32,431 nucleotides of DNA, from contig CAMDYM010000013.1 in assembly GCA_945910425.1 (NCBI GenBank), positions 1 to 32,431 of the forward strand. Direction: 5' to 3'. Below, piece after piece: positions 62-30,277 of the stretch. A program made the translations under genes and the position numbers. This DNA is from an uncultured Candidatus Melainabacteria bacterium (lineage in GTDB: Bacteria; Cyanobacteriota; Vampirovibrionia; Gastranaerophilales; Gastranaerophilaceae). Position 1 is the first letter of the stretch. Every line of letters begins with the position of its first letter. The notes under the pieces were generated by a model, which worked only from the letters and a program-made list of their open reading frames with translations, did not search any database and was not told the origin of the DNA.

Positions 62-844
62 ATGAAAAACGGTTTTACATTAGCTGAAGGTGCTACGCAC
101 ATAACTTCGCTACCAATGGCAGCAAAATTTGGTTTTACATTAGCTGAAGTTCTTATCACTCTTGGAATAATAGGCGTAGTTGCGGCAATGACTATACCTA
201 CTTTAATTGCAAATACTAATGGAGCAAAATATCGTTCGCAATATAAAAAGACCCTTTCTTCACTAAATCAAGCCGTAAAAATGAATATTGCAAACCACGA
301 TTTTGACTTTGGCTCAGCAGGTCAAGCCTGTAACAGAACAGATAATCCCGAATCTGTAATGTCTGTTTGTGCAATATTTAACGGAGCATTAACAGGAGTC
401 ACAATATTTGACTACACTCAACTAAAAACCCCTAAAAATACCCTCTATTATCAAGATTTATATAATAAAGGAACAACCTCAGATACTGAAATTAAAGAAA
501 GACATGTTGATTTATACTACTACCAATTAAAAGACGGCTCCTTCTTCGCATTCCATTCCCCAACCATAGAATGTACCTTAGGAAACAAAACACTTGAACA
601 ACGTATGACAGAAACAGAATTCCACAGATACTGCCTTGGGTGGATTGATGTAAACGGTGTAAACTTACCAAATAAAGAGGTTCGCTGTAAAGACGGTAAA
701 TCTCATACAAAAGATATCGGAACATCCTGTATTGTCCCTAATGACCCAAGCCATATGGCAGATGTTTTTCCTGTAGTATTTTATGACGGAACAGTAGCCC
801 CGGGCTCCGCTGCCGCCAGATACGTGCTAAACACAACAAAATAA
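62..844 (+). CDS. Prepilin-like protein with duplicated N-terminal cleavage motif
   Basis: This 260-residue protein is a type IV pilin-like or type II secretion pseudopilin-like protein, expected to be cut by prepilin peptidase and anchored by its N-terminal helix. The motif GFTLAE occurs twice, at residues 4-9 and 24-29. Only the second is followed directly by the hydrophobic helix (VLITLGIIGVVAAMTIPTLI), so cleavage probably follows Gly24, leaving Phe25 at +1 and Glu29 at +5. The remainder looks like a soluble globular domain with several Cys, and I do not recognise it. The upstream ATG is kept because AAGGGA lies just before it and the two motifs are in frame. The extra 20 codons look like an insertion (see the repeat entry). 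No pilus assembly gene is nearby. Substrate and role are unknown. Confidence 0.85.
   Translation: MKNGFTLAEGATHITSLPMAAKFGFTLAEVLITLGIIGVVAAMTIPTLIANTNGAKYRSQYKKTLSSLNQAVKMNIANHDFDFGSAGQACNRTDNPESVMSVCAIFNGALTGVTIFDYTQLKTPKNTLYYQDLYNKGTTSDTEIKERHVDLYYYQLKDGSFFAFHSPTIECTLGNKTLEQRMTETEFHRYCLGWIDVNGVNLPNKEVRCKDGKSHTKDIGTSCIVPNDPSHMADVFPVVFYDGTVAPGSAAARYVLNTTK
71..149 (+). repeat. 19-bp direct repeat bounding an in-frame 60-bp insertion
   Basis: GGTTTTACATTAGCTGAAG occurs at 71-89 and exactly again at 131-149, 60 bases apart, with 41 bases of unrelated sequence between. The period is a multiple of three, so the reading frame is kept and the prepilin motif GFTLAE is encoded twice. The other two prepilin-like genes in the window have only one copy. 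Confidence 0.9.
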
Positions 845-850
845 CTAATA

Positions 851-1012
851 CTACAATTCATTTACAATATTATAAACAAGTTTTAACTTGGTTTCATCCA
901 AGGCTTCCAGTCTGTTATTAATTTTTCTAATTAAATCGCCTTTTGAAACAATAAGTTTAAAATTAAAAATCTCTTCATAAGATACATCCAAACAGACTGA
1001 GATATGACGTAT
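851..1012 (-). pseudogene. C-terminal relic of an XRE-family regulator
   Basis: A 53-codon open stretch on the minus strand, ending in TAG at 851-853, has no good start and is preceded in frame by TAA at 1013-1015. It contains ISVCLDVSYEEIFNF, which matches the end of an XRE helix-turn-helix domain. The intact regulator at 29957-30277 has KIGKALNIKIKDLFDF at that point, followed by a tail of similar length: LDETKLKLVYNIVNEL here and NRNRLQDFYKIISSLTD there. The DNA-binding N-terminal half is missing. Most likely a regulator that lost its 5' half. The reading comes from pattern comparison by eye only. Confidence 0.6.
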
Positions 1013-1020
1013 TTACATTT

Positions 1021-1194
1021 CAACTATTAGTTGGTATAGAGGAACCTGTACCAATGGGAGAACCTCGTTCTGCATAGCCGAATTTAACAAGAGAATGCAA
1101 TGATAACAGTAATTCCACGACGAATGGAATAGCCTGTACCATTAAAACAAAAGATGATACTGATTACTTAAAAATATCAAATAAAATAAGATAA
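1021..1194 (+). pseudogene. C-terminal relic of a prepilin-like gene
   Basis: Reading from 1021 gives about 57 codons ending in TAA at 1192-1194, interrupted by TAG at 1075-1077, with no prepilin N-terminus. The translation resembles the C-terminal end of the prepilin at 4458-5171. The relic has VPMGEPRSA, stop, then a Cys, then NGIACTIK. The intact protein has VPAGSDRTLAQIKQNC, then GYWCLTYVK. The relic starts within a few bases of the point where the neighbouring XRE relic begins on the other strand. Both are therefore the distal ends of a divergent pair. Homology judged by eye. Confidence 0.6.
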
Positions 1195-1195
1195 C

Positions 1196-1223
1196 AAAAA
1201 AGCCCTCCATAAAGGAGAGCTTT
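1196..1223 (-). terminator. Rho-independent terminator after secY
   Basis: On the minus strand AAAGCTCTCC and GGAGGGCTTT pair with one mismatch around a 5-base loop, followed by a run of six T (A 1196-1201 on the plus strand). It sits about 20 bases past the secY stop codon and closes the ribosomal operon. Confidence 0.85.
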
Positions 1224-1242
1224 CTTATATATTATTATTAAA

Positions 1243-2583
1243 TTACATATCTTTTAAGAAAGATTCGTAATTTCTGGCAAGCAAGTGTGTCTTAACCTGA
1301 TTGATTAAGTCAAGAGCTACACCAACCATAATGATTAATGATGTAGAACCGATACCCTGCAAGGTTTCGATATGAGTCAATCCGCTTGCCAATGACGGTA
1401 CAAGCGCGATTATACCTAAACCGATAGCTCCGATAAATGTTGTTTTTGACAAGATTTTATCTAAAGCTTCAGCTGTCGGTCTGCCCGGTTTAATACCGGG
1501 AATTGATGAACCGTATTTTTTAAGGTTATCGGCAATATCTTTTGGCTGCATATTCGGCATAATTGAAGCGTAGAAGAATGTTAATGCAATAATCAAACCT
1601 ACATACAACACATAATACCAAGCACCGCTCGGACTCAAAACCATAGCCATTTTAGCTATAGCATTATTAAATGCAACAGAACCGATATTTGCTTGTCTTA
1701 ACAATTCAAAAATTGTTGACGGGAATAATAATATCGCAATCGCAAAGATAATCGGCATAACCCCGCCCGGATTAAGTTTAAACGGAATAAATGAGTTCAT
1801 ACCGCCATAAACTTTATTACCGATTTGTCTTTTAGGATTAACAATGATTACTTTTCTAACAGCTTCCTGCATGATTACAATAAGAACCATTGCAAGGAAA
1901 AATATTGCAAGTAATAAAAATAATCCTAATTGCATTTGAGAACTTGCCTTAACAAGCTTAGCAGTACTTGATGCGTATACAGGAATACCTGATAAGATAC
2001 CGCAGAAGATTATCAAAGAACCTCCGTTACCGATACCGTTTTCGGTAATCAATTCAGATATCCACATTACAAGTACAGCACCCGCAGTTAATACACAAAT
2101 CGAACTTGCATAAAACGCAATCGGATTAACTTGTGCCATAATAGCGTTTGGTACATGATGCAAATACATCATAAATACAAATGATTGGAAGATTGCTAAC
2201 ACCACAGTAAAAACTCTTGTATACTGCGAAAGTTTTCTTCTTCCTGCTTCGCCCTCTTCTTTTTGTAATTTTTCCAATGAAGGAATAACTACAGAAACAA
2301 GTTGAACAATGATTGATGAGGTGATGAAAGGTCCAATACCTAACGCAAGGATAGATACCTTACCCAACGCACCGCCTGAAAACAAGTCCAGAAATCCTAT
2401 TAAAGAATTACTTTGAGCAAGTGCCGTAAATGCCTGGTTATTAATACCATACAAAGGCATTTGGACACCTAATCTCCAGACTGCAATCATCAATAGTGAA
2501 AATATAATCTTCTGCTTTAAGCCTGAAGCATTCCACATTGACATCAAATCATCAGTTGTCGGCATTTTTAAACTTTGTGCCAT
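1243..2583 (-). CDS. secY: Protein translocase channel subunit SecY
   Basis: SecY forms the protein-conducting channel of the Sec translocase in the inner membrane. At 446 residues it has the usual length and about ten hydrophobic segments. Family patterns are clear: LGIGPFITSSIIVQL near the second helix, the cytoplasmic PKRQIGNKVYGG loop, and the PKDIADNLKKYGSSIPGIKPG stretch before the last helices. Its ATG overlaps the rplO stop codon as TAATG, so translation is probably coupled. adk, map and infA, which often follow secY in the spc operon, are absent; a terminator follows instead. Confidence 0.97.
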   Translation of the reverse strand: MAQSLKMPTTDDLMSMWNASGLKQKIIFSLLMIAVWRLGVQMPLYGINNQAFTALAQSNSLIGFLDLFSGGALGKVSILALGIGPFITSSIIVQLVSVVIPSLEKLQKEEGEAGRRKLSQYTRVFTVVLAIFQSFVFMMYLHHVPNAIMAQVNPIAFYASSICVLTAGAVLVMWISELITENGIGNGGSLIIFCGILSGIPVYASSTAKLVKASSQMQLGLFLLLAIFFLAMVLIVIMQEAVRKVIIVNPKRQIGNKVYGGMNSFIPFKLNPGGVMPIIFAIAILLFPSTIFELLRQANIGSVAFNNAIAKMAMVLSPSGAWYYVLYVGLIIALTFFYASIMPNMQPKDIADNLKKYGSSIPGIKPGRPTAEALDKILSKTTFIGAIGLGIIALVPSLASGLTHIETLQGIGSTSLIIMVGVALDLINQVKTHLLARNYESFLKDM

Positions 2584-3032
2584 TATACTAACTCAACCTT
2601 TCCACCGGCAGCTTCAATTTTTTCCTTAGCAGATGGCGTTACGTAAGCTGCCTTAACTGTAACTGCTGATTTAATTTCACCGTTGCCTAATACTCTTAAG
2701 CCAACACAAGATGGGTGAATTGTTAATTTTTCTTTTAATGAATCCAAAGAAATTTCTTTAAGTCCTAAAGCATCAATTCTGCCAACATTGATTTGAGCAT
2801 AATTAAGCTTAGAATAAACCTGGAAGCCTTTCAATTTAGGAAGTCTTCTATATGCAGGCATCTGACCGCCTTCAAAACCTCTTTTTGAAGAGTTACCTGA
2901 TCTTTGACCTTCACCGTTATGACCGCGGCAAGATGTTTTACCATGTCCTGATGAACGTCCTCTACCGACTCTTTTAGATTTAGATGTAGAACCTTCAGCC
3001 GGTCTTAAATCTTCTAATGTTATATTTGACAT
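2583..3032 (-). CDS. rplO: 50S ribosomal protein L15
   Basis: L15 is a large-subunit protein that binds 23S rRNA late in assembly. The 149 residues are the standard length. The N-terminal basic, Gly-rich arm is typical (RVGRGRSSGHGKTSCRGHNG, then the GFEGGQMPAYRRLPKLKGF block). The C-terminal half carries the L18e/L15 fold pattern GLRVLGNGEIKSAVTVKA. An AAGAAAGAGG-type ribosome binding site precedes the ATG. The last base of its stop codon is the first base of the secY start codon. Confidence 0.97.
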   Translation of the reverse strand: MSNITLEDLRPAEGSTSKSKRVGRGRSSGHGKTSCRGHNGEGQRSGNSSKRGFEGGQMPAYRRLPKLKGFQVYSKLNYAQINVGRIDALGLKEISLDSLKEKLTIHPSCVGLRVLGNGEIKSAVTVKAAYVTPSAKEKIEAAGGKVELV

Positions 3033-3083
3033 ATTATTTTCCTCTTTCTTTATAATTTATAATAAATCTAAGTACTTGGGCAA

Positions 3084-3275
3084 TTACTTAACAACTTCCA
3101 ACAAATGTGAAACTTTGTTAACCATACCCATAATTGTAGCTGAAGCTGCATGTTCAACAACCTGGTCTTTCTTAGTTAAACCTAAGCCTCTGACTACTTT
3201 GCGTTGGCGTTCAGATGCGCCGATTAAACTTTTAACAAGCTTAATTTTAATCATATCATTTTTCTTATCTGTCAT
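3084..3275 (-). CDS. rpmD: 50S ribosomal protein L30
   Basis: L30 is a small large-subunit protein. The 63-residue product has the family pattern IKIKLVKSLIGASERQRKVVRGLGLTK followed by a short second half (NKVSHLLEVV). The N-terminus carries seven extra residues before MIKIKLVK. The longer start is chosen because AAGGA lies nine bases upstream. It sits between rpsE and rplO, the normal spc order. Confidence 0.95.
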   Translation of the reverse strand: MTDKKNDMIKIKLVKSLIGASERQRKVVRGLGLTKKDQVVEHAASATIMGMVNKVSHLLEVVK

Positions 3276-3317
3276 AATTTTAATTCCTTATAATTTTAAT
3301 TTAAATACTACTTATTA

Positions 3318-3968
3318 CTAGTTTAAAAGTTCAGCCATAGTAAGACCGCGTTTTTTAGCAACATCATTGAACGGAGTTAATGATTTTAAAGCTTCGATAG
3401 TAGCATTAGCTGCGTTTAATGGAGATTTAGAACCTAAAGATTTTGAAAGAATATTTTCAATACCTGCAAGCTCTAATACTGAACGAACAGCACCACCTGC
3501 AATAATACCTGTACCTTCTGAAGCAGGTCTTAACATAACTGCACCTGCACCTGATTTACCTGTGATTGGGTGAGGAATAGTTGTTTTGAAGATAGGTACA
3601 TTGATAACATTTTTTCTACCGTCAGCAATTGCCTTTTGAATAGCAATGATAACTTCAGCAGCTTTAGCACAACCGATACCGACTTGACCTTTTTTGTTAC
3701 CAACGATAACGATAGCACGGAAGCTTAATTTTTTACCACCTTTAACAACTTTTGTTACACGGCTGATTTGAACAACTGTTTCAGTCCAATCAGATTGAGG
3801 TTTTTCTTCTGTTGTTTCGATTTTTTGTTTTCTGCCGCGTCTTTTTGAGCGAGCAGGTTTTTCTTCAGAAACAGCTTCAGTTGCCACAACTTCAACAGTT
3901 TCTTCAGCTTTAACTTCTTCTGCATTTTCTACAGATTCAGTAACTTTTAATTCTTCATTGTTTTCCAT
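3318..3968 (-). CDS. rpsE: 30S ribosomal protein S5 with acidic-basic N-terminal extension
   Basis: S5 belongs to the small ribosomal subunit and helps decoding fidelity. The core begins near residue 60 ([20 protein letters not shown]) and carries the family patterns [18 protein letters not shown] and the Gly-rich [23 protein letters not shown] block. Ahead of it lies an extension of about 55-60 residues, first Glu/Val-rich and then strongly basic ([11 protein letters not shown]), absent from the 166-residue E. coli protein. An in-frame ATG at 4001 exists, but the ATG at 3968 has AGAAAGG eight bases upstream and is preferred (216 residues). rplR and rplF, which usually precede it, are not here. 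Confidence 0.95.
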
Positions 3969-4007
3969 TGATTTTACCTTTCTAAAATTGTTTAATAACA
4001 TTTATTT

Positions 4008-4027
4008 TCAGGTTTTGGGTTCCCTGA
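4008..4027 (-). promoter_or_regulatory. Small hairpin in the rpsE leader
   Basis: TCAGG and CCTGA pair around a 10-base loop in the roughly 130-base untranslated leader between the promoter and rpsE. The stem is short and could be chance, but a leader this long before a ribosomal operon could carry a protein-binding control site. Confidence 0.25.
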
Positions 4028-4106
4028 TATAAATTGAATACGCCAAAACATAAGCTGTATTGAGCTATTTTGAAATCGTATTCGATTGTTAACTTCTGAC
4101 AAGGTA

Positions 4107-4135
4107 AATTTATCATAAATAAACTACCGTGTCAA
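4107..4135 (-). promoter_or_regulatory. Strong promoter of the rpsE-rpmD-rplO-secY operon
   Basis: On the minus strand a perfect -35 TTGACA (4130-4135) is followed after exactly 17 bases by TAAATT (4107-4112). Transcription would start near 4100, about 130 bases before rpsE. It lies just beyond the stop codon of the XRE gene on the same strand. Confidence 0.75.
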
Positions 4136-4153
4136 CAATGATGTAAAGATTTT

Positions 4154-4375
4154 CTAAGATTTTTCGGTCAATAAATAGTCAAGAGATTTTTTGTAAAACT
4201 TTGCAAATTTATACGCATTTATTAATGAAATCTTATGCTTACCACTTTCAACATTTGATACATATACAGAACTAAAATCCAAACTTTCCGCTATTTTTTC
4301 TTGCGACAGTCCTAATTTTAAACGTTCAATCTTTAAATTAAGACCAAATATTTTCAAAAATTTTTCATTATCCAT
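4154..4375 (-). CDS. Small XRE-family transcriptional regulator
   Basis: A 73-residue protein that is almost only a Cro/C1-type helix-turn-helix domain. The pattern is RLKLGLSQEKIAESLDFSSVYVSNVESGKHKISLINAYKFAKFYKKSLDYLL, with the turn-recognition part LSQEKIAESLDFSSVYVSNVESG near residues 23-45. No effector domain is present. It is divergent from the prepilin-like gene at 4458, with 82 bases between the start codons, and inverted TAGTTTAA repeats lie at both ends of that gap. Control of that gene and of itself is an inference from this layout. Confidence 0.85.
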   Translation of the reverse strand: MDNEKFLKIFGLNLKIERLKLGLSQEKIAESLDFSSVYVSNVESGKHKISLINAYKFAKFYKKSLDYLLTEKS

Positions 4376-4437
4376 AGTTTAAATTTATATTCTTGACTTT
4401 ATAAAAGCCATAATTTACAATTTATCATGTTAAACTA
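4375..4437. promoter_or_regulatory. Inverted repeat flanking the XRE/prepilin promoter region
   Basis: TAGTTTAA at 4375-4382 is repeated in inverted form as TTAAACTA at 4430-4437. The two copies bracket the promoter of the prepilin-like gene. One copy touches the regulator's start codon and the other lies near the prepilin transcription start. A regulator binding site is possible; eight AT-rich bases could also match by chance. Confidence 0.4.
4393..4421 (+). promoter_or_regulatory. Promoter of the second prepilin-like gene
   Basis: TTGACT (4393-4398) and TACAAT (4416-4421) are separated by 17 bases. Transcription would start near 4428, about 30 bases before the ATG at 4458. Confidence 0.7.
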
Positions 4438-4457
4438 CAGTTTATGGGAGAAATATT

Positions 4458-5171
4458 ATGAAACGAGGTTTTACATTAGCAGAGGTTTTAATCACTCTCG
4501 GCATTATCGGGGTTGTTGCGGCTATGACAATCCCGACATTGATATCAAAAATCCAAAAACGCACTATAGAAGCTCAGATTAAAGAAAATTATGCAATGCT
4601 TGCTCAAACAATGAGATTTGCCGAATATGATGATATTGGGAGTATGCCAATCAGCGCAAACAGCACTGCAAGCATGAAAAAATGGTTTGAACAATTTCTT
4701 GCACCGCATTTAAAAGTTGAACAAGTTTGTTTTCAAACCGCAGGTTGCTGGCATAAAAAAGGTGTTGTTAAAACATTAAACAATGGAACACCAGAATTTG
4801 AAACAAAAGTCGGAGAAAATGACAGTACAATCGGTTGGGGAACTATGACATTTCGAACAGCTAAAGGTGCATATTTTAATATGGATGGAAGTTCTCCAGG
4901 AACTACACAAAGCCTTTTCGGAGTTAATTCAAAAGTTCCGACATTACAATTTTATTTTGATGTAAACGGGGATAGACGACCTAACAAAATCGGCAAAGAT
5001 ATTTACATTATGATTTATGACCCGGATAAAGGGTTTGTTCCCGCAGGAAGCGATAGAACTTTAGCTCAAATCAAACAAAATTGCGAAACAGGGAACGGCT
5101 ACTGGTGCTTAACCTACGTAAAAAATAACGGTTGGGTAATACCAAATTCTGTTTGGAAACGTAAGAAGTAA
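4458..5171 (+). CDS. Prepilin-like protein
   Basis: This 237-residue protein has the prepilin signal MKRGFTLAEVLITLG at its N-terminus. Cleavage is expected after Gly4, giving Phe5 at +1 and Glu9 at +5, and the hydrophobic helix runs to about residue 30. The rest is a soluble domain with four Cys (QVCFQTAGCW and NCETGNGYWC), probably disulfide pairs. The segment FYFDVNGDRRPNKIGKDIYIM resembles the calcium-type or structural loop FDVNG seen in related proteins; the third prepilin has VDINGNEKGPNRFGRDFFYL at the same place. GGGAG precedes the ATG. It is divergent from a small XRE gene. Whether it builds a pilus, a secretion pseudopilus or another surface structure cannot be told. Confidence 0.88.
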   Translation: MKRGFTLAEVLITLGIIGVVAAMTIPTLISKIQKRTIEAQIKENYAMLAQTMRFAEYDDIGSMPISANSTASMKKWFEQFLAPHLKVEQVCFQTAGCWHKKGVVKTLNNGTPEFETKVGENDSTIGWGTMTFRTAKGAYFNMDGSSPGTTQSLFGVNSKVPTLQFYFDVNGDRRPNKIGKDIYIMIYDPDKGFVPAGSDRTLAQIKQNCETGNGYWCLTYVKNNGWVIPNSVWKRKK

Positions 5172-5185
5172 ATACTATTATTTTT

Positions 5186-5215
5186 CTCTTTGTGTTAAAA
5201 TAAAAGCAAAAAGAG
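5186..5215 (+). promoter_or_regulatory. Imperfect hairpin overlapping the leuC ribosome binding site
   Basis: CTCTTTGTG (5186-5194) can pair with CAAAAAGAG (5207-5215) with one mismatch. The 3' arm overlaps the first bases of the GAGGGA ribosome binding site. It could affect leuC translation or mark the end of the preceding gene; there is no long T-run. Confidence 0.25.
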
Positions 5216-5227
5216 GGACATAAAAGT

Positions 5228-6469
5228 ATGGGACAAACTTTAGTAGAAAAAATTATATCAAACCACGCAGGGCATGATGTTAAAGCAGGAGAACTTGTTA
5301 TCGCAAAAGTTGATGTTTGCGCGGTTCAAGACGGTACGGGACCTTTAACGGTTCAGGAATTTAAAAAACTCGGAAAAGAAAAGCTTAACAATCCTGAGCG
5401 TACAATATTATTTATTGACCATGCTTCACCAAGCCCAAAAAAAGAATTATCAAACATGCACACAATTTTGCGCGATTTTTCACGTGAATATGGTGCGGTT
5501 TTATCTGAAGTCGGTTCAGGGGTTTGCCACCAGCGTTTGGTTGAAACCTTTGTTAACCCGACAGAAATTCTGGTCGGCGCAGACTCTCACACCTGCACTT
5601 CAGGTGCTTTAGGCGCATTTGCAACAGGCATGGGTTCAACCGATGTTGCGGTTGCAATGGCACTCGGTAAAACCTGGTTAAAAGTTCCTCAAACCTTCAA
5701 AATCGTTGTTAACGGTAAATTCAGAGAAGGAATTTGTTCAAAAGATTTAATGCTTCATCTTATCGGAATGATTGGTGCAGATGGCGCGACATACAAAGCC
5801 TTGGAATTTTGCGGGGACACTATTGATAATATGTGCATGGCAGAACGCTTTACATTAGCTAATATGGCTGTCGAAGCAGGTGCTAAATGCGGGTTATTCG
5901 TACCTGATGATAAAACTAAAGAATACTTAACTTCCCGCGGACGCGGCGATAAATATAAAGAAATAAAACCTGACACTGATGCTGTTTACGAACGTGTAAT
6001 CGAAATTGACGCATCAACTATCGAACATACGGTATCATGCCCGCACACCGTTGATAACACAAAACTTGCAAAAGACTTAAATGATGTAAAAGTTCAGCAG
6101 GTTTATGTCGGAACATGCACAAACGGAAGAATCGAAGATATGAGAACCGTTGCAAAGATTTTAAAAGGCAAAAAAGTTCACGAAGGTGTAAGAATGCTGA
6201 TTTGCCCCGCATCTCGTGATGTTTATAAACAAGCTTTGCAAGAAGGTTTATTGGAAACATTTATAGATTCAAACGCAACAATACTACCACCCGGTTGCGG
6301 ACCATGTGTTGGAATACACGCGGGGATTCTGGCTGACGGAGAAGTTTGCCTTACAACCCAAAACAGAAACTTCCAAGGCAGACTCGGCAACACTAAAGGT
6401 TATATCTACCTGTCTTCTCCTTACGTTGCCGCATACTCTGCTCTAAACGGTTATATCAGCTGCAAATAA
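5228..6469 (+). CDS. leuC: 3-Isopropylmalate dehydratase large subunit (homoaconitase-type)
   Basis: LeuC is the iron-sulfur catalytic subunit that, with LeuD, isomerises 2-isopropylmalate to 3-isopropylmalate in leucine synthesis. At 413 residues it is the short, prokaryotic homoaconitase-like form. The [4Fe-4S] ligands are visible as Cys297 in VGTCTNGR and Cys357/Cys360 in PPGCGPCVG. Other family blocks are FIDHASPSP near residue 63, GADSHTCTSGALGAFATGMGSTD near 117, and CPHTVDNTKL near 271. GAGGGA precedes the ATG. No leuD follows; the next gene is on the other strand, so the small subunit must lie elsewhere. A related activity on homoaconitate or another malate cannot be excluded. Confidence 0.92.
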   Translation: MGQTLVEKIISNHAGHDVKAGELVIAKVDVCAVQDGTGPLTVQEFKKLGKEKLNNPERTILFIDHASPSPKKELSNMHTILRDFSREYGAVLSEVGSGVCHQRLVETFVNPTEILVGADSHTCTSGALGAFATGMGSTDVAVAMALGKTWLKVPQTFKIVVNGKFREGICSKDLMLHLIGMIGADGATYKALEFCGDTIDNMCMAERFTLANMAVEAGAKCGLFVPDDKTKEYLTSRGRGDKYKEIKPDTDAVYERVIEIDASTIEHTVSCPHTVDNTKLAKDLNDVKVQQVYVGTCTNGRIEDMRTVAKILKGKKVHEGVRMLICPASRDVYKQALQEGLLETFIDSNATILPPGCGPCVGIHAGILADGEVCLTTQNRNFQGRLGNTKGYIYLSSPYVAAYSALNGYISCK

Positions 6470-8254: not shown

Positions 8255-10780
8255 CTATGCTTCCTCCTTAATCGGTTCAGGCTTTTTCATTCTACCCATA
8301 AAGAATTGAGATATTAAAGTTACCCCAATAACCGCAGCTCCGAGTTTTCCAAAAATAGAGAACCACTTACCGCTATTATACTTATTATTTGCCAGCTTAT
8401 ACATAAATTCGTTTGTAGCAGCACCAAGCCTGTTAAATCTTTCACTGGATGTTGCTTTATGTTCAATACCATCTACCAACACTTGAGGGAATGCAAAACT
8501 ACGTTCTCCGCCGAGTTTTTGAAGTGAATCTACTCTATAAGCCTGAAAATCACTAAAGAATACCGAACTTTTAATTCTTTCTGCAATATCAGGATGTACA
8601 TCACCAAACATTAATTTCATGGCATCACTGAAATAATTACTGTCATTTGGCATTGATACACGTTCATGAGCAGGTATTTTACCGTAATAATCATACTGAA
8701 CTTTTCCGTTAACGACTTTTATATCGCCTCTATCAGATAAATCAGGAGTTAAATTACGTCGTTGGTATAATTTTACCGCAAAATCAGCCGTATGACCTTC
8801 CATAAGAACAGATTTCACAAGTTCAACCATTTCTTCTTTCACTTCTCTAGGTCTTAAGTGACCGATAACACCATTAATAGCTTTATCGTGAGCTATTTTA
8901 TAATATGTGTTAATAATTTGCAGCAAGCGGTAGAAGGAACTTCTTACACCCGTAATTCTTTCATTCATAAACGAATGATATAAACCCTTTATACCCGTAT
9001 TACCTTTATCTCCAAACCCCAGAAGAGAATCGACTGTTCCGTCTAAACCTAACTTCCGCAACTCATCTGCTGCTGCTTTAAATGAAGAATCTACCAAATC
9101 ATGATAAGAATGAGAGTCTTTTTCTAACGGTGAGGTTTTTGAATAAACAACAGATAAAAGTTTTTCCATTTTTGTAACAAGCTCAGCGCATGCATTTTTA
9201 TCTGCTACAATATCTTCAATTTTTGCTCTTAATACATCACCTGCAACTTTGCTATCAAGTCTTGCTTTTGCAACCTCTTCAGGTGAAAGTTTAAGAGCTT
9301 TAATAAATTCATCAGCAGTCTGATTCCAAATATCTGCTAAAATAGTTTCCTGATCTTGCGCAACTTTTATATGTGAATATCTGTCTAATACTGAAGTTTT
9401 TGCTCTAAGAGTATCAAATATTGAACCAATACTTCTTAACTGATTTGCAATATCCTCTGTTAAAACTCTTGATTTTTGCGTTTTGAATGCTTGTTCCAAA
9501 GGTGAATCTTCACCCTTTTGTCCCTGATGAATAAGAGAATCTAAGAAGAAATTCAAACGTCTTGCCTGAATAGACTTAGGGTCTTGAGCTACAAACTCAT
9601 TAATCCTGTTTGTTAACAATTCCTGCATTGCAACAGAATGAGAAGAAAATTCTTTATATTCACCACCCACTAAACCTTTATCACTTAAGAAATTAAGCAT
9701 CGTACTGTTATCAGGAATCAGTTTTGCCAAGTCTTCTTCTGATAATCCCGCAGGCTGCAAGATATTTTTAAAGGCTTCCCGAACATTATCCAACGTTGCT
9801 GTTGTAACACTAAAATGCTCCCCAACAGGCATGATTGAACGTAAATCTTCTGATACAGATTTCACAACAGCAGGATCTTGACCTTGTGTAATATTTGCTA
9901 CAACCTGATTAAACAAATCCTGAGTTAACGGTTTTTGCAGATTTTCTTCAATCAAACCTTCTAAAGCGCGTTGTCTTGGTTTAAAATCGTATTTACTGAT
10001 TTCTTCTCCAAAATGCGTTAATAACTCTTCACTTTGCTTATCTTTTCTATCATGAAGAAACTTAGAAACAGGACCTTCTAATCTGTTACAAATTAAAGCA
10101 CTCAAAAGCGGGGTTGCAAAACCTGATGTCAACATCCACATTGTATTATTCTGCAACGCAATTTTACGCATTTTTTCCTGAATATAATCTCTTCTGTTCG
10201 GAATATCCTTTGGAACATGTAATCTGTCGCCAATTTTATTGATTTCTTTATCTGAATATAAATCCCAAGGAATAAATTGATGATCGGAGAAGACCATTTT
10301 CTTTCTTCCGTAATTATCTTCATATTTTTGTCTTATATCAAATCCGTGAACAAGTCTTGCAGGAAGTTGCAAGAAAAGTTTAGGCCAAATATTCATTGCT
10401 CCGAAAAACGCTGTTAAACCTATAAACTCAAACCATTTTGTCATCGGAGTAGCTTTTCTGGTAAACAAGTATGAAGCTATAGCAAGCCCGCCAAGCTTCA
10501 TTCCGACATCATTAAGTTTACCCAATTCATGGTCGTTAGCTTTTCCGCTTATTGCATGCCTGAAAGCATTCCAGTCATATTTTAAACCTTTTGAAATTTC
10601 TGACGGCATATCAAATAAACTCGGACGAACCAGTTTGCCGTTACTTGGCAGCGGTTTAATAAATGTACGATTTGCCAATTCTTTATTTACATCAAAATTT
10701 TTAACCGCTTTATCTGCGTTATACTGTCTTGTCGCAGGATGTGAATTTATATATGCCTGAATTAAATTATCTGTTCTCAT
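8255..10780 (-). CDS. Large uncharacterised membrane protein, paralogue of the next gene
   Basis: I do not recognise a named family for this 841-residue protein. Hydrophobic segments lie near residues 92-140, at 212-232 (MWMLTSGFATPLLSALIC) and at the C-terminus (GKLGAAVIGVTLISQFFMG). Between them is a long, mostly helical, soluble region of several hundred residues. The ends resemble the 348-residue protein encoded just upstream. LPARLVHGFDIRQKY matches its YPIKLATGIDTELPY, WDLYSDKE matches WDMLYGDPKK, and the last helix and KKP tail are alike. The ATG follows the upstream gene's stop directly, and the GH13 gene starts two bases after its end, so the three form one operon. Role unknown; a large cell-envelope scaffold is one possibility. 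Confidence 0.75.
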   Translation of the reverse strand: MRTDNLIQAYINSHPATRQYNADKAVKNFDVNKELANRTFIKPLPSNGKLVRPSLFDMPSEISKGLKYDWNAFRHAISGKANDHELGKLNDVGMKLGGLAIASYLFTRKATPMTKWFEFIGLTAFFGAMNIWPKLFLQLPARLVHGFDIRQKYEDNYGRKKMVFSDHQFIPWDLYSDKEINKIGDRLHVPKDIPNRRDYIQEKMRKIALQNNTMWMLTSGFATPLLSALICNRLEGPVSKFLHDRKDKQSEELLTHFGEEISKYDFKPRQRALEGLIEENLQKPLTQDLFNQVVANITQGQDPAVVKSVSEDLRSIMPVGEHFSVTTATLDNVREAFKNILQPAGLSEEDLAKLIPDNSTMLNFLSDKGLVGGEYKEFSSHSVAMQELLTNRINEFVAQDPKSIQARRLNFFLDSLIHQGQKGEDSPLEQAFKTQKSRVLTEDIANQLRSIGSIFDTLRAKTSVLDRYSHIKVAQDQETILADIWNQTADEFIKALKLSPEEVAKARLDSKVAGDVLRAKIEDIVADKNACAELVTKMEKLLSVVYSKTSPLEKDSHSYHDLVDSSFKAAADELRKLGLDGTVDSLLGFGDKGNTGIKGLYHSFMNERITGVRSSFYRLLQIINTYYKIAHDKAINGVIGHLRPREVKEEMVELVKSVLMEGHTADFAVKLYQRRNLTPDLSDRGDIKVVNGKVQYDYYGKIPAHERVSMPNDSNYFSDAMKLMFGDVHPDIAERIKSSVFFSDFQAYRVDSLQKLGGERSFAFPQVLVDGIEHKATSSERFNRLGAATNEFMYKLANNKYNSGKWFSIFGKLGAAVIGVTLISQFFMGRMKKPEPIKEEA

Positions 10781-14697: not shown

Positions 14698-15117
14698 TTA
14701 CCGTTTAACAAATTTTGTCAACATTTCTATAGAACGACAAACAGCTCTTGTTAAATCATCTTCATGCTCAGATGTTGTGTTAACCAGTTTTAGCCCTCTG
14801 CCATCTGCAATGAAAACCTGTTTAGGTTCAGAATATTCAAAAGTGTCTTGTGTAGAAGATATTAATGAAACACCGCCCTTTTTAGTTTTATTATTTCTGA
14901 CAATAACCGCCAAATCATCATCTGAAGATTTTTCTAAAACAGAAACTAAATCAGGAGCCTTGTCAAGCATACTTGAAGCTTTTGCAATACTTACATTAAC
15001 CCCGTTTTCCTTAACATAAGGAACAAATAATCCCTCAACTTTGGAAAGTCGGGACAGTGCTTTATTCACAGCGGTATTACTATAATCTTGTATAATTCTG
15101 ACAGGTACGACTTTCAT
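14698..15117 (-). CDS. Uncharacterised 139-residue protein
   Basis: I do not recognise a family. The protein is soluble, with alternating helix and strand by eye and no membrane segment or Cys-rich motif. An upstream ATG at 15129 would add four residues, but the AAGGAA just before it leaves no spacer. The ATG at 15117, with GGAG six bases upstream, is better. The N-terminus MKVVPV resembles MKVAPV of the protein at 17161-17748. A TATAAT lies at 15144-15149 on this strand. It is followed by the kdsD promoter region. Confidence 0.7.
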   Translation of the reverse strand: MKVVPVRIIQDYSNTAVNKALSRLSKVEGLFVPYVKENGVNVSIAKASSMLDKAPDLVSVLEKSSDDDLAVIVRNNKTKKGGVSLISSTQDTFEYSEPKQVFIADGRGLKLVNTTSEHEDDLTRAVCRSIEMLTKFVKR

Positions 15118-28879: not shown

Positions 28880-29053
28880 TTACACTTTTCTTTTACGAGC
28901 TGCTTCAGATTTATGTTTTCTTTTAACGCTTGGCTTTTCATATCTTTCACGTTTTTTTACTTCAGAAAGAATACCTGCTTTTTGGATTTTCTTTTTGAAA
29001 CGTCTTAAAGCGCTTTCGATACTTTCGTTTTCGCCAACTTTAACTTCTGCCAT
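28880..29053 (-). CDS. rpsU: 30S ribosomal protein S21
   Basis: S21 is a small basic small-subunit protein involved in translation initiation. The 57-residue product begins [19 protein letters not shown] and continues with [20 protein letters not shown] and a Lys/Arg-rich tail ([17 protein letters not shown]), matching the family over its full length. It was found by reading the minus strand directly, since it is very short. GGTGGTG precedes the ATG at a slightly long distance. It is a single-gene transcript with its own promoter and terminator. Confidence 0.95.
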
Positions 29054-29130: not shown

Positions 29131-29811
29131 TTATTTCCAAGGATAAGAATCGTCAATCTGCCAGCCTGCACGCTTAATACGTTCAGCACAATACCAACCT
29201 GTACCACTGTTGGAACACTCTGATTTTAGAGCCGAATCTGAGAGATTATACCCATAAGGCACAACACCTTTTCCGTTTTCAAGACGGGTAAGATAGAAAA
29301 AATCTCTTCCAAATCTGTTTGGACCTTTCTCATTACCATTAATATCTACGGCAATTATACTGCTCGAAACAGATATATTTCCTGAAGTCGCACCTGTAAA
29401 GACAATATATAAAATTCCATCCATAGTATAAAAAGGAAGTAAAATATTACCGCTGTAATCCCCGCCCATTCCTTGAGAGTCTCCGTTAGGGGATGAAACC
29501 CCTTTTTTATACATACATCGTGAATTATTACACAACTCAGCACCTTTAATATAAGGATTCCAATATGTTTTAAAATACATTTCAGAACCCATATTAAATG
29601 CATTATCGGGTTCGCCTAAATCTTCATAAGACAAGCGGTAAGCCTGATTTAAAATAGAAATAGCTTTTTGAAGCTTTGTTACGGTAACTTTCTTTTGATG
29701 AGCCGTTATCAAATTAGGAATAGTCATCGCTGCAACAACTCCGATAATCCCAAGTGTAATAAGAGTTTCTGCAAGAGTGAACCCAAATGTTTTATCTTTC
29801 ATCCTTTTCAA
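29131..29811 (-). CDS. Prepilin-like protein, TTG start
   Basis: This 226-residue protein has the prepilin signal KTFGFTLAETLITLGIIGVV. Cleavage is expected after Gly10, with Phe11 at +1 and Glu15 at +5. The soluble part has Cys pairs (AELCNNSRCMYKKGV and ECSNSGTGWYC) and VDINGNEKGPNRFGRD, both shared in pattern with the prepilin at 4458-5171. The start is a TTG at 29811 with GAGGA eight bases upstream; the ATG at 29802 has no room for a ribosome binding site. It is divergent from an XRE regulator and has a strong promoter in the gap. Function unknown beyond the pilin-like anchor. Confidence 0.87.
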   Translation of the reverse strand: MKRMKDKTFGFTLAETLITLGIIGVVAAMTIPNLITAHQKKVTVTKLQKAISILNQAYRLSYEDLGEPDNAFNMGSEMYFKTYWNPYIKGAELCNNSRCMYKKGVSSPNGDSQGMGGDYSGNILLPFYTMDGILYIVFTGATSGNISVSSSIIAVDINGNEKGPNRFGRDFFYLTRLENGKGVVPYGYNLSDSALKSECSNSGTGWYCAERIKRAGWQIDDSYPWK

Positions 29812-29956: not shown

Positions 29957-30277
29957 ATGTCAGAATTAAAAAAACTTTTAGGACGCAGGATTCAAGAGCT
30001 GAGAAAGCGACAAAATATAAAACAAGAAAAACTTGCCGAGATAATAAACATTGCACCAAGAAATCTCAGCAACATAGAAACAGGCAGGAGCTTTCCGTCA
30101 GCTGAAACCATTGAAAAAATCGGAAAAGCCCTAAATATTAAAATTAAGGATTTATTTGATTTTGACCACCAAAAGGATGATGAAGAACTTTTAGCAGGAA
30201 TAATAGAAAAGATAAAACCTGTAAACAGAAATCGATTACAAGATTTTTACAAAATTATAAGCTCATTAACAGACTAA
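29957..30277 (+). CDS. XRE-family transcriptional regulator
   Basis: A 106-residue protein with a Cro/C1-type helix-turn-helix at residues 8-62 (RRIQELRKRQNIKQEKLAEI, then NIAPRNLSNIETGRSFPSAET, ending KIKDLFDF). A helical tail of about 40 residues follows (ELLAGIIEKIKPVNRNRLQDFYKII), perhaps for dimerisation. AAAAGGAGGT is a near-perfect ribosome binding site. It is divergent from a prepilin-like gene across 145 bases that hold a 9-bp inverted repeat. It is the intact relative of the relic at 851-1012. Confidence 0.88.
   Translation: MSELKKLLGRRIQELRKRQNIKQEKLAEIINIAPRNLSNIETGRSFPSAETIEKIGKALNIKIKDLFDFDHQKDDEELLAGIIEKIKPVNRNRLQDFYKIISSLTD

Follow-up and report, generated by a model that had tools for sequence, protein, structure and literature searches.

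Remnants of a divergent XRE regulator and type IV prepilin gene pair beside secY, a double relic probably left by a single deletion and passed between species

In the genome of an uncultured Candidatus Melainabacteria bacterium of the family Gastranaerophilaceae, two truncated genes occupy the 400 bases between a prepilin gene (62-844) and secY, which raises the question of what these fragments once were, how they came to be cut and how they came to be found where they are. Hereafter, the window refers to the whole stretch of DNA analysed, i.e., 32,431 nucleotides of contig CAMDYM010000013.1 (assembly GCA_945910425.1). Two relatives matter most for comparison, namely G001, a species of the same genus and the sole one known to hold an intact orthologue of the gene pair, and G023, which shares the truncated state. 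The locus is laid out as follows:

62..844, plus strand: intact prepilin gene, left anchor (open reading frame with a PF07963 match)
851..993, minus strand: XRE regulator remnant, about 46 C-terminal codons, helix-turn-helix (HTH) lost (alignment to the G001 XRE)
963..1140: tract of 178 bp identical to G023 across the junction (comparison of the window with G023)
988..993: deletion junction with direct-repeat overlap CCAAAC (blastn pieces and alignment)
988..1194, plus strand: prepilin remnant, residues 162 onward (alignment to the G001 prepilin)
1194..1228: terminator hairpin separating the secY 3' end from the prepilin remnant, with a T-run for the minus strand (secY)
1243..2583, minus strand: secY, right anchor (open reading frame and orthologues)

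The left-anchor prepilin gene has its orthologue as the same neighbour in both relatives (L037 2000-2725 in G001 and L038 2894-3616 in G023). The hairpin also aligns in G001 and G023, and its retention is explained by secY terminating there.

Searched against Pfam, neither the XRE nor the prepilin fragment returned a match and, because neither is recognised alone, homology can be demonstrated solely through intact relatives. DNA searches of 59 relatives gave a full-length match in G023 only and a split match in G001; within the genus, matching DNA is present in only 3 out of 46 genomes, one of these with intact genes. In G001, the order along L037 is prepilin (2000-2725), XRE (2733-3080, minus strand), prepilin (3190-3882, plus strand) and secY (3941-5284, minus strand), which provides at the orthologous place the intact divergent pair called for by the initial annotation of the window. 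The intact XRE protein counts 115 aa from a TTG or 105 aa from an ATG start and matches HTH_3 (Pfam, 3e-18), while the type IV prepilin counts 230 aa and matches N_methyl (Pfam, 7.9e-7). Translated from the minus strand, the XRE remnant is identical to the C-terminal 47 residues of the G001 XRE at 37/47 positions (79%; pairwise E 5e-25). On the plus strand, the prepilin remnant, whose reading starts PNRLRYDVFTFQLL from position 988, agrees with residues 162-223 of the G001 prepilin at 48/62 positions (77%; E 1e-33). Both remnants, as proposed from the letters of the window, are thus confirmed as real. The own genome was also searched for another copy of the pair, the best other XRE being only 44% identical; an XRE of G020 with 71% identity was considered as well and set aside, as it lies at another place, where its neighbours are a pheT-like gene and a divergently oriented prepilin.

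The comparison with G001 locates the cut. By blastn, window positions 146-993 align to L037 2027-2875 and positions 988-3500 to L037 3673-6202, leaving about 803 bp missing relative to G001 (3673 minus 2870). XRE codons from about 70/115 are joined to prepilin codons from 162/230, and what has been removed comprises almost all of the HTH, the leader and transmembrane helix of the prepilin, and the promoter region shared by the two genes. In G001, the flanks of the junction read acatcTAAACtatc on the left and aaaacCAAACagac on the right, with a direct repeat of 4-6 nt, i.e., AAAC exact in both flanks and CCAAAC at most, so that the junction displays micro-homology and no insertion, as is typical of deletions between short direct repeats. 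The prepilin remnant bears two further lesions, namely (i) a TAT codon turned into TAG at 1075-1077, which is the in-frame stop already reported, and (ii) a loss of 13 bp near 1162/1163, at a ATTACTTTAAAAA/ATTACTTAAAAA-type repeat, by which the last residues are altered. As such, each fragment bears disabling lesions and has an intact homologue at the orthologous position in G001, as expected of a pseudogene. The XRE remnant, devoid of the helix-turn-helix domain, is derived from the family rather than being a working regulator, and the prepilin remnant, having lost residues 1-161, lacks the N-terminal leader, the FTLAE cleavage site and the hydrophobic helix that define type IV prepilins.

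The initial annotation had attributed the two relics to one deletion across a divergent pair, taking both 5' ends and the promoters, and this interpretation is supported by the alignment as essentially correct, with a single loss ending inside both genes and with their 5' ends and promoter region gone relative to G001. Its borders have to be shifted. The XRE relic does start at 851 but ends at about 993 rather than 1012, since the last 19 nt or so (994-1012), read as the stretch 'IRHISV(C)', are antisense prepilin DNA misassigned to XRE. Conversely, the prepilin relic does end at 1194 but begins at about 988 rather than 1021, 33 nt (988-1020) having been missed. The junction expected near 1013-1020 actually lies at 988-993.

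The exact junction pattern, sought in the genome contigs, was recovered only from the G023 record CANOTP010000001.1, from an uncultured Candidatus Melainabacteria bacterium; both G023 and the window genome appear to be metagenome assemblies. Junction, stop codon and 13-bp loss are all common to the two in alignment. Across the junction (963-1140), the window and G023 are identical at 178/178 positions, against 84% over the window, 85.1% over 279 kb of sampled alignment and, by segment, 77% at 845-962 (XRE tail), 81% in the first prepilin gene and 89.5% in secY, for which third positions are 73.6% identical. This run is the longest identical one in the window and the second longest in the 279 kb. 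The second longest in the window, which it exceeds, is accounted for by a bS21 (rpsU)-like gene lying there (28880-29053, minus strand, about 57 codons), read by eye below the cut-off for open reading frames.

Three ways of accounting for this state without a transfer of the scar have to be weighed. That the window state is ancestral and that G001 gained an insertion between the fragments might draw on other members of the genus having neither gene at the secY 3' end, a site where modules come and go. The fragments nonetheless correspond to the 3' thirds of two unrelated families, abut head to head exactly as the genes of the intact pair are arranged, and carry nonsense and frameshift lesions; their homology to parts of complete genes refutes such an insertion, which can be regarded as practically out of the question. 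A single deletion inherited vertically by the window's species and G023 from their common ancestor has more to recommend it, as all three lesions are common to both and as the window is closer to G023 (84%) than to G001 (79%). Against it, dead DNA would be expected to be 73-77% identical rather than to exhibit 178 identical bp, and the XRE tail did not diverge neutrally. Outside the identical tract, over the 42 codons tested, the window and G023 differ at 11.5 nonsynonymous changes out of 101.8 sites and 13.5 synonymous changes out of 24.2 sites, i.e., a dN/dS of 0.12, with P = 2.4e-4 when tested against neutral evolution as a pseudogene. This divergence bears the mark of purifying selection, and therefore XRE stayed intact in both lineages during most of the time since they separated; with XRE still intact after the lineages had parted, the deletion was not simply inherited from a common ancestor and, considering the identical tract as well, the scar must be young. 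Plain vertical descent is consequently deemed unlikely.

The identity of the tract between two species is unusual and might suggest selection, namely that the relic was recruited as a small RNA, a peptide or regulatory DNA. Here, the signs are unfavourable, as fold energies fall within those of shuffled sequences on both strands (z -1.0 and -1.1), promoter-like sites in 800-1300 are at chance level, the open reading frames are only short ones from TTG or ATG, none plausible as a new gene, and matching DNA is as rare in the genus as stated above. An Rfam search of the relic found no family at the gathering score, the sub-gathering matches being all on the terminator hairpin. Recruitment thus seems quite improbable, a new function for the identical tract appears to be without support, and no present function is evident from the sequence of the remnant. 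The simplest reading is instead that the scar was probably passed recently between the two species by homologous recombination. On the right side, G023 is nearest to G001 at 1141-1187 and the window at 1188-1240, a mosaic which fits an exchange of segments but is short.

Taken as a whole, with a probability of about 0.9, the locus would be a dead double relic, produced by one deletion of about 803 bp of late origin, with the scar subsequently moved by recombination. The ancestral module, flanked by the left-anchor prepilin gene and secY, would have comprised a repressor-like XRE gene on the minus strand, a type IV prepilin gene on the plus strand and a promoter region of about 110-140 bp shared by both. 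It was most likely self-contained, the XRE protein controlling the prepilin next to it through that gene's near-consensus promoter. In the G001 counterpart of the lost pair, the prepilin promoter reads TTGACA-17-CATAAT and is overlain by two exact 13-bp direct repeats, GTGATAAATAATA, with a spacing of 20 bp (p 0.007). One deletion between direct repeats of 4-6 nt, by slippage or end joining, would have beheaded both genes and removed their promoters in one step. The prepilin remnant additionally shows the premature stop and the loss of 13 bp attributed to slippage. This would have happened late, in the lineage of the window, that of G023 or a third one, XRE having remained intact well after the split of the former two, and homologous recombination would then have substituted a short segment bearing the scar for the intact allele of another species.

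Taken by itself, the relic is nothing out of the ordinary. Like other bacterial pseudogenes born of deletions between short direct repeats, it joins gene ends at a repeat of 4-6 nt with no insertion and carries small further lesions; unlike them, one event beheads two divergent genes, and two species that are 15% different elsewhere carry almost the same scar sequence. It captures a gene pair just as it is being lost; the precise cut can be seen, and an intact relative is available for comparison. Less ordinary is what it points to, namely a loss allele seemingly crossing species borders and a family of lineage-specific prepilins with private XRE genes. Regarding XRE regulators (Cro/CI-type, HTH_3) with a divergent target, the intact relatives conform, having HTH_3, a partner gene read in the opposite direction and a strong intervening promoter, whereas the HTH is gone from the window remnant, the partner encodes a type IV prepilin and is not a phage or toxin gene, and the arrangement recurs in about 25 copies. 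Large families of type IV prepilins (PF07963) are likewise known, of which the 97 N_methyl matches here and 119 in G023 are reminiscent, but about a quarter of those here come with an XRE gene of their own. In the literature searched, no description was found of lineage-specific prepilins that each stand head to head with such an XRE gene.

Within the own genome (1.76 Mb), 25 of the 41 XRE matches are oriented divergently to a prepilin match 84-282 nt away, as compared to 0.9 under random placement; among the same 41 matches, no XRE was found in tandem or convergent beside a prepilin. In G023, 29/54 XRE matches face a prepilin, never in tandem, while one genome from another family of the order holds 11 prepilins, 7 XRE and 0 pairs within 600 bp. 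The window itself contains another divergent pair (29131-29811, minus strand, and 29957-30277, plus strand). In most modules, the intergenic region contains a promoter close to consensus that points at the prepilin, and in some of these the spacer holds a palindrome, e.g., TTGACA-acaacgcgtatacgcgt-TATAAT. A repeat operator common to all modules was considered and rejected, direct repeats reaching p<=0.05 in 4/28 intergenic regions and palindromes in 5/26 promoter cores, which is suggestive only. Each prepilin may have a private repressor. The genes neighbouring the secY 3' end vary widely in the genus (L009-L027), including a MiaB-like methylthiotransferase, ribonucleotide reductase, a prepilin and others, and this is therefore a site where modules come and go. 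Tentatively, the dozens of self-contained XRE/prepilin modules in gut Melainabacteria of this genus, each with its own repressor, might constitute an exchangeable surface repertoire subject to gain, loss and interspecies recombination, in which loss alleles travel too, an idea we consider rather doubtful.

Elsewhere in the own genome (G000), contig C5 holds two further tracts identical to G023, one of 188 bp (14732-14919) and one of 140 bp (9553-9692, L219), against a background of 85%; these may possibly be further recent exchanges, and the 188-bp tract suggests that exchanges of this kind occur occasionally. Regarding XRE genes, at least 94 XRE-like matches are present in the 2.2-Mb genome of G008, far above most relatives. 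Regarding prepilins, the N-terminus of the left-anchor gene (62-145) bears a 60-bp in-frame insert by which GFTLAE is repeated, i.e., MKNGFTLAE-GATHITSLPMAAKF-GFTLAEVLITL. The insert is absent from the G023 orthologue and similar GATHV-LP--A inserts occur in several other prepilins of the own genome and of relatives; it may represent a small element that recurs in the signal sequences of prepilins.
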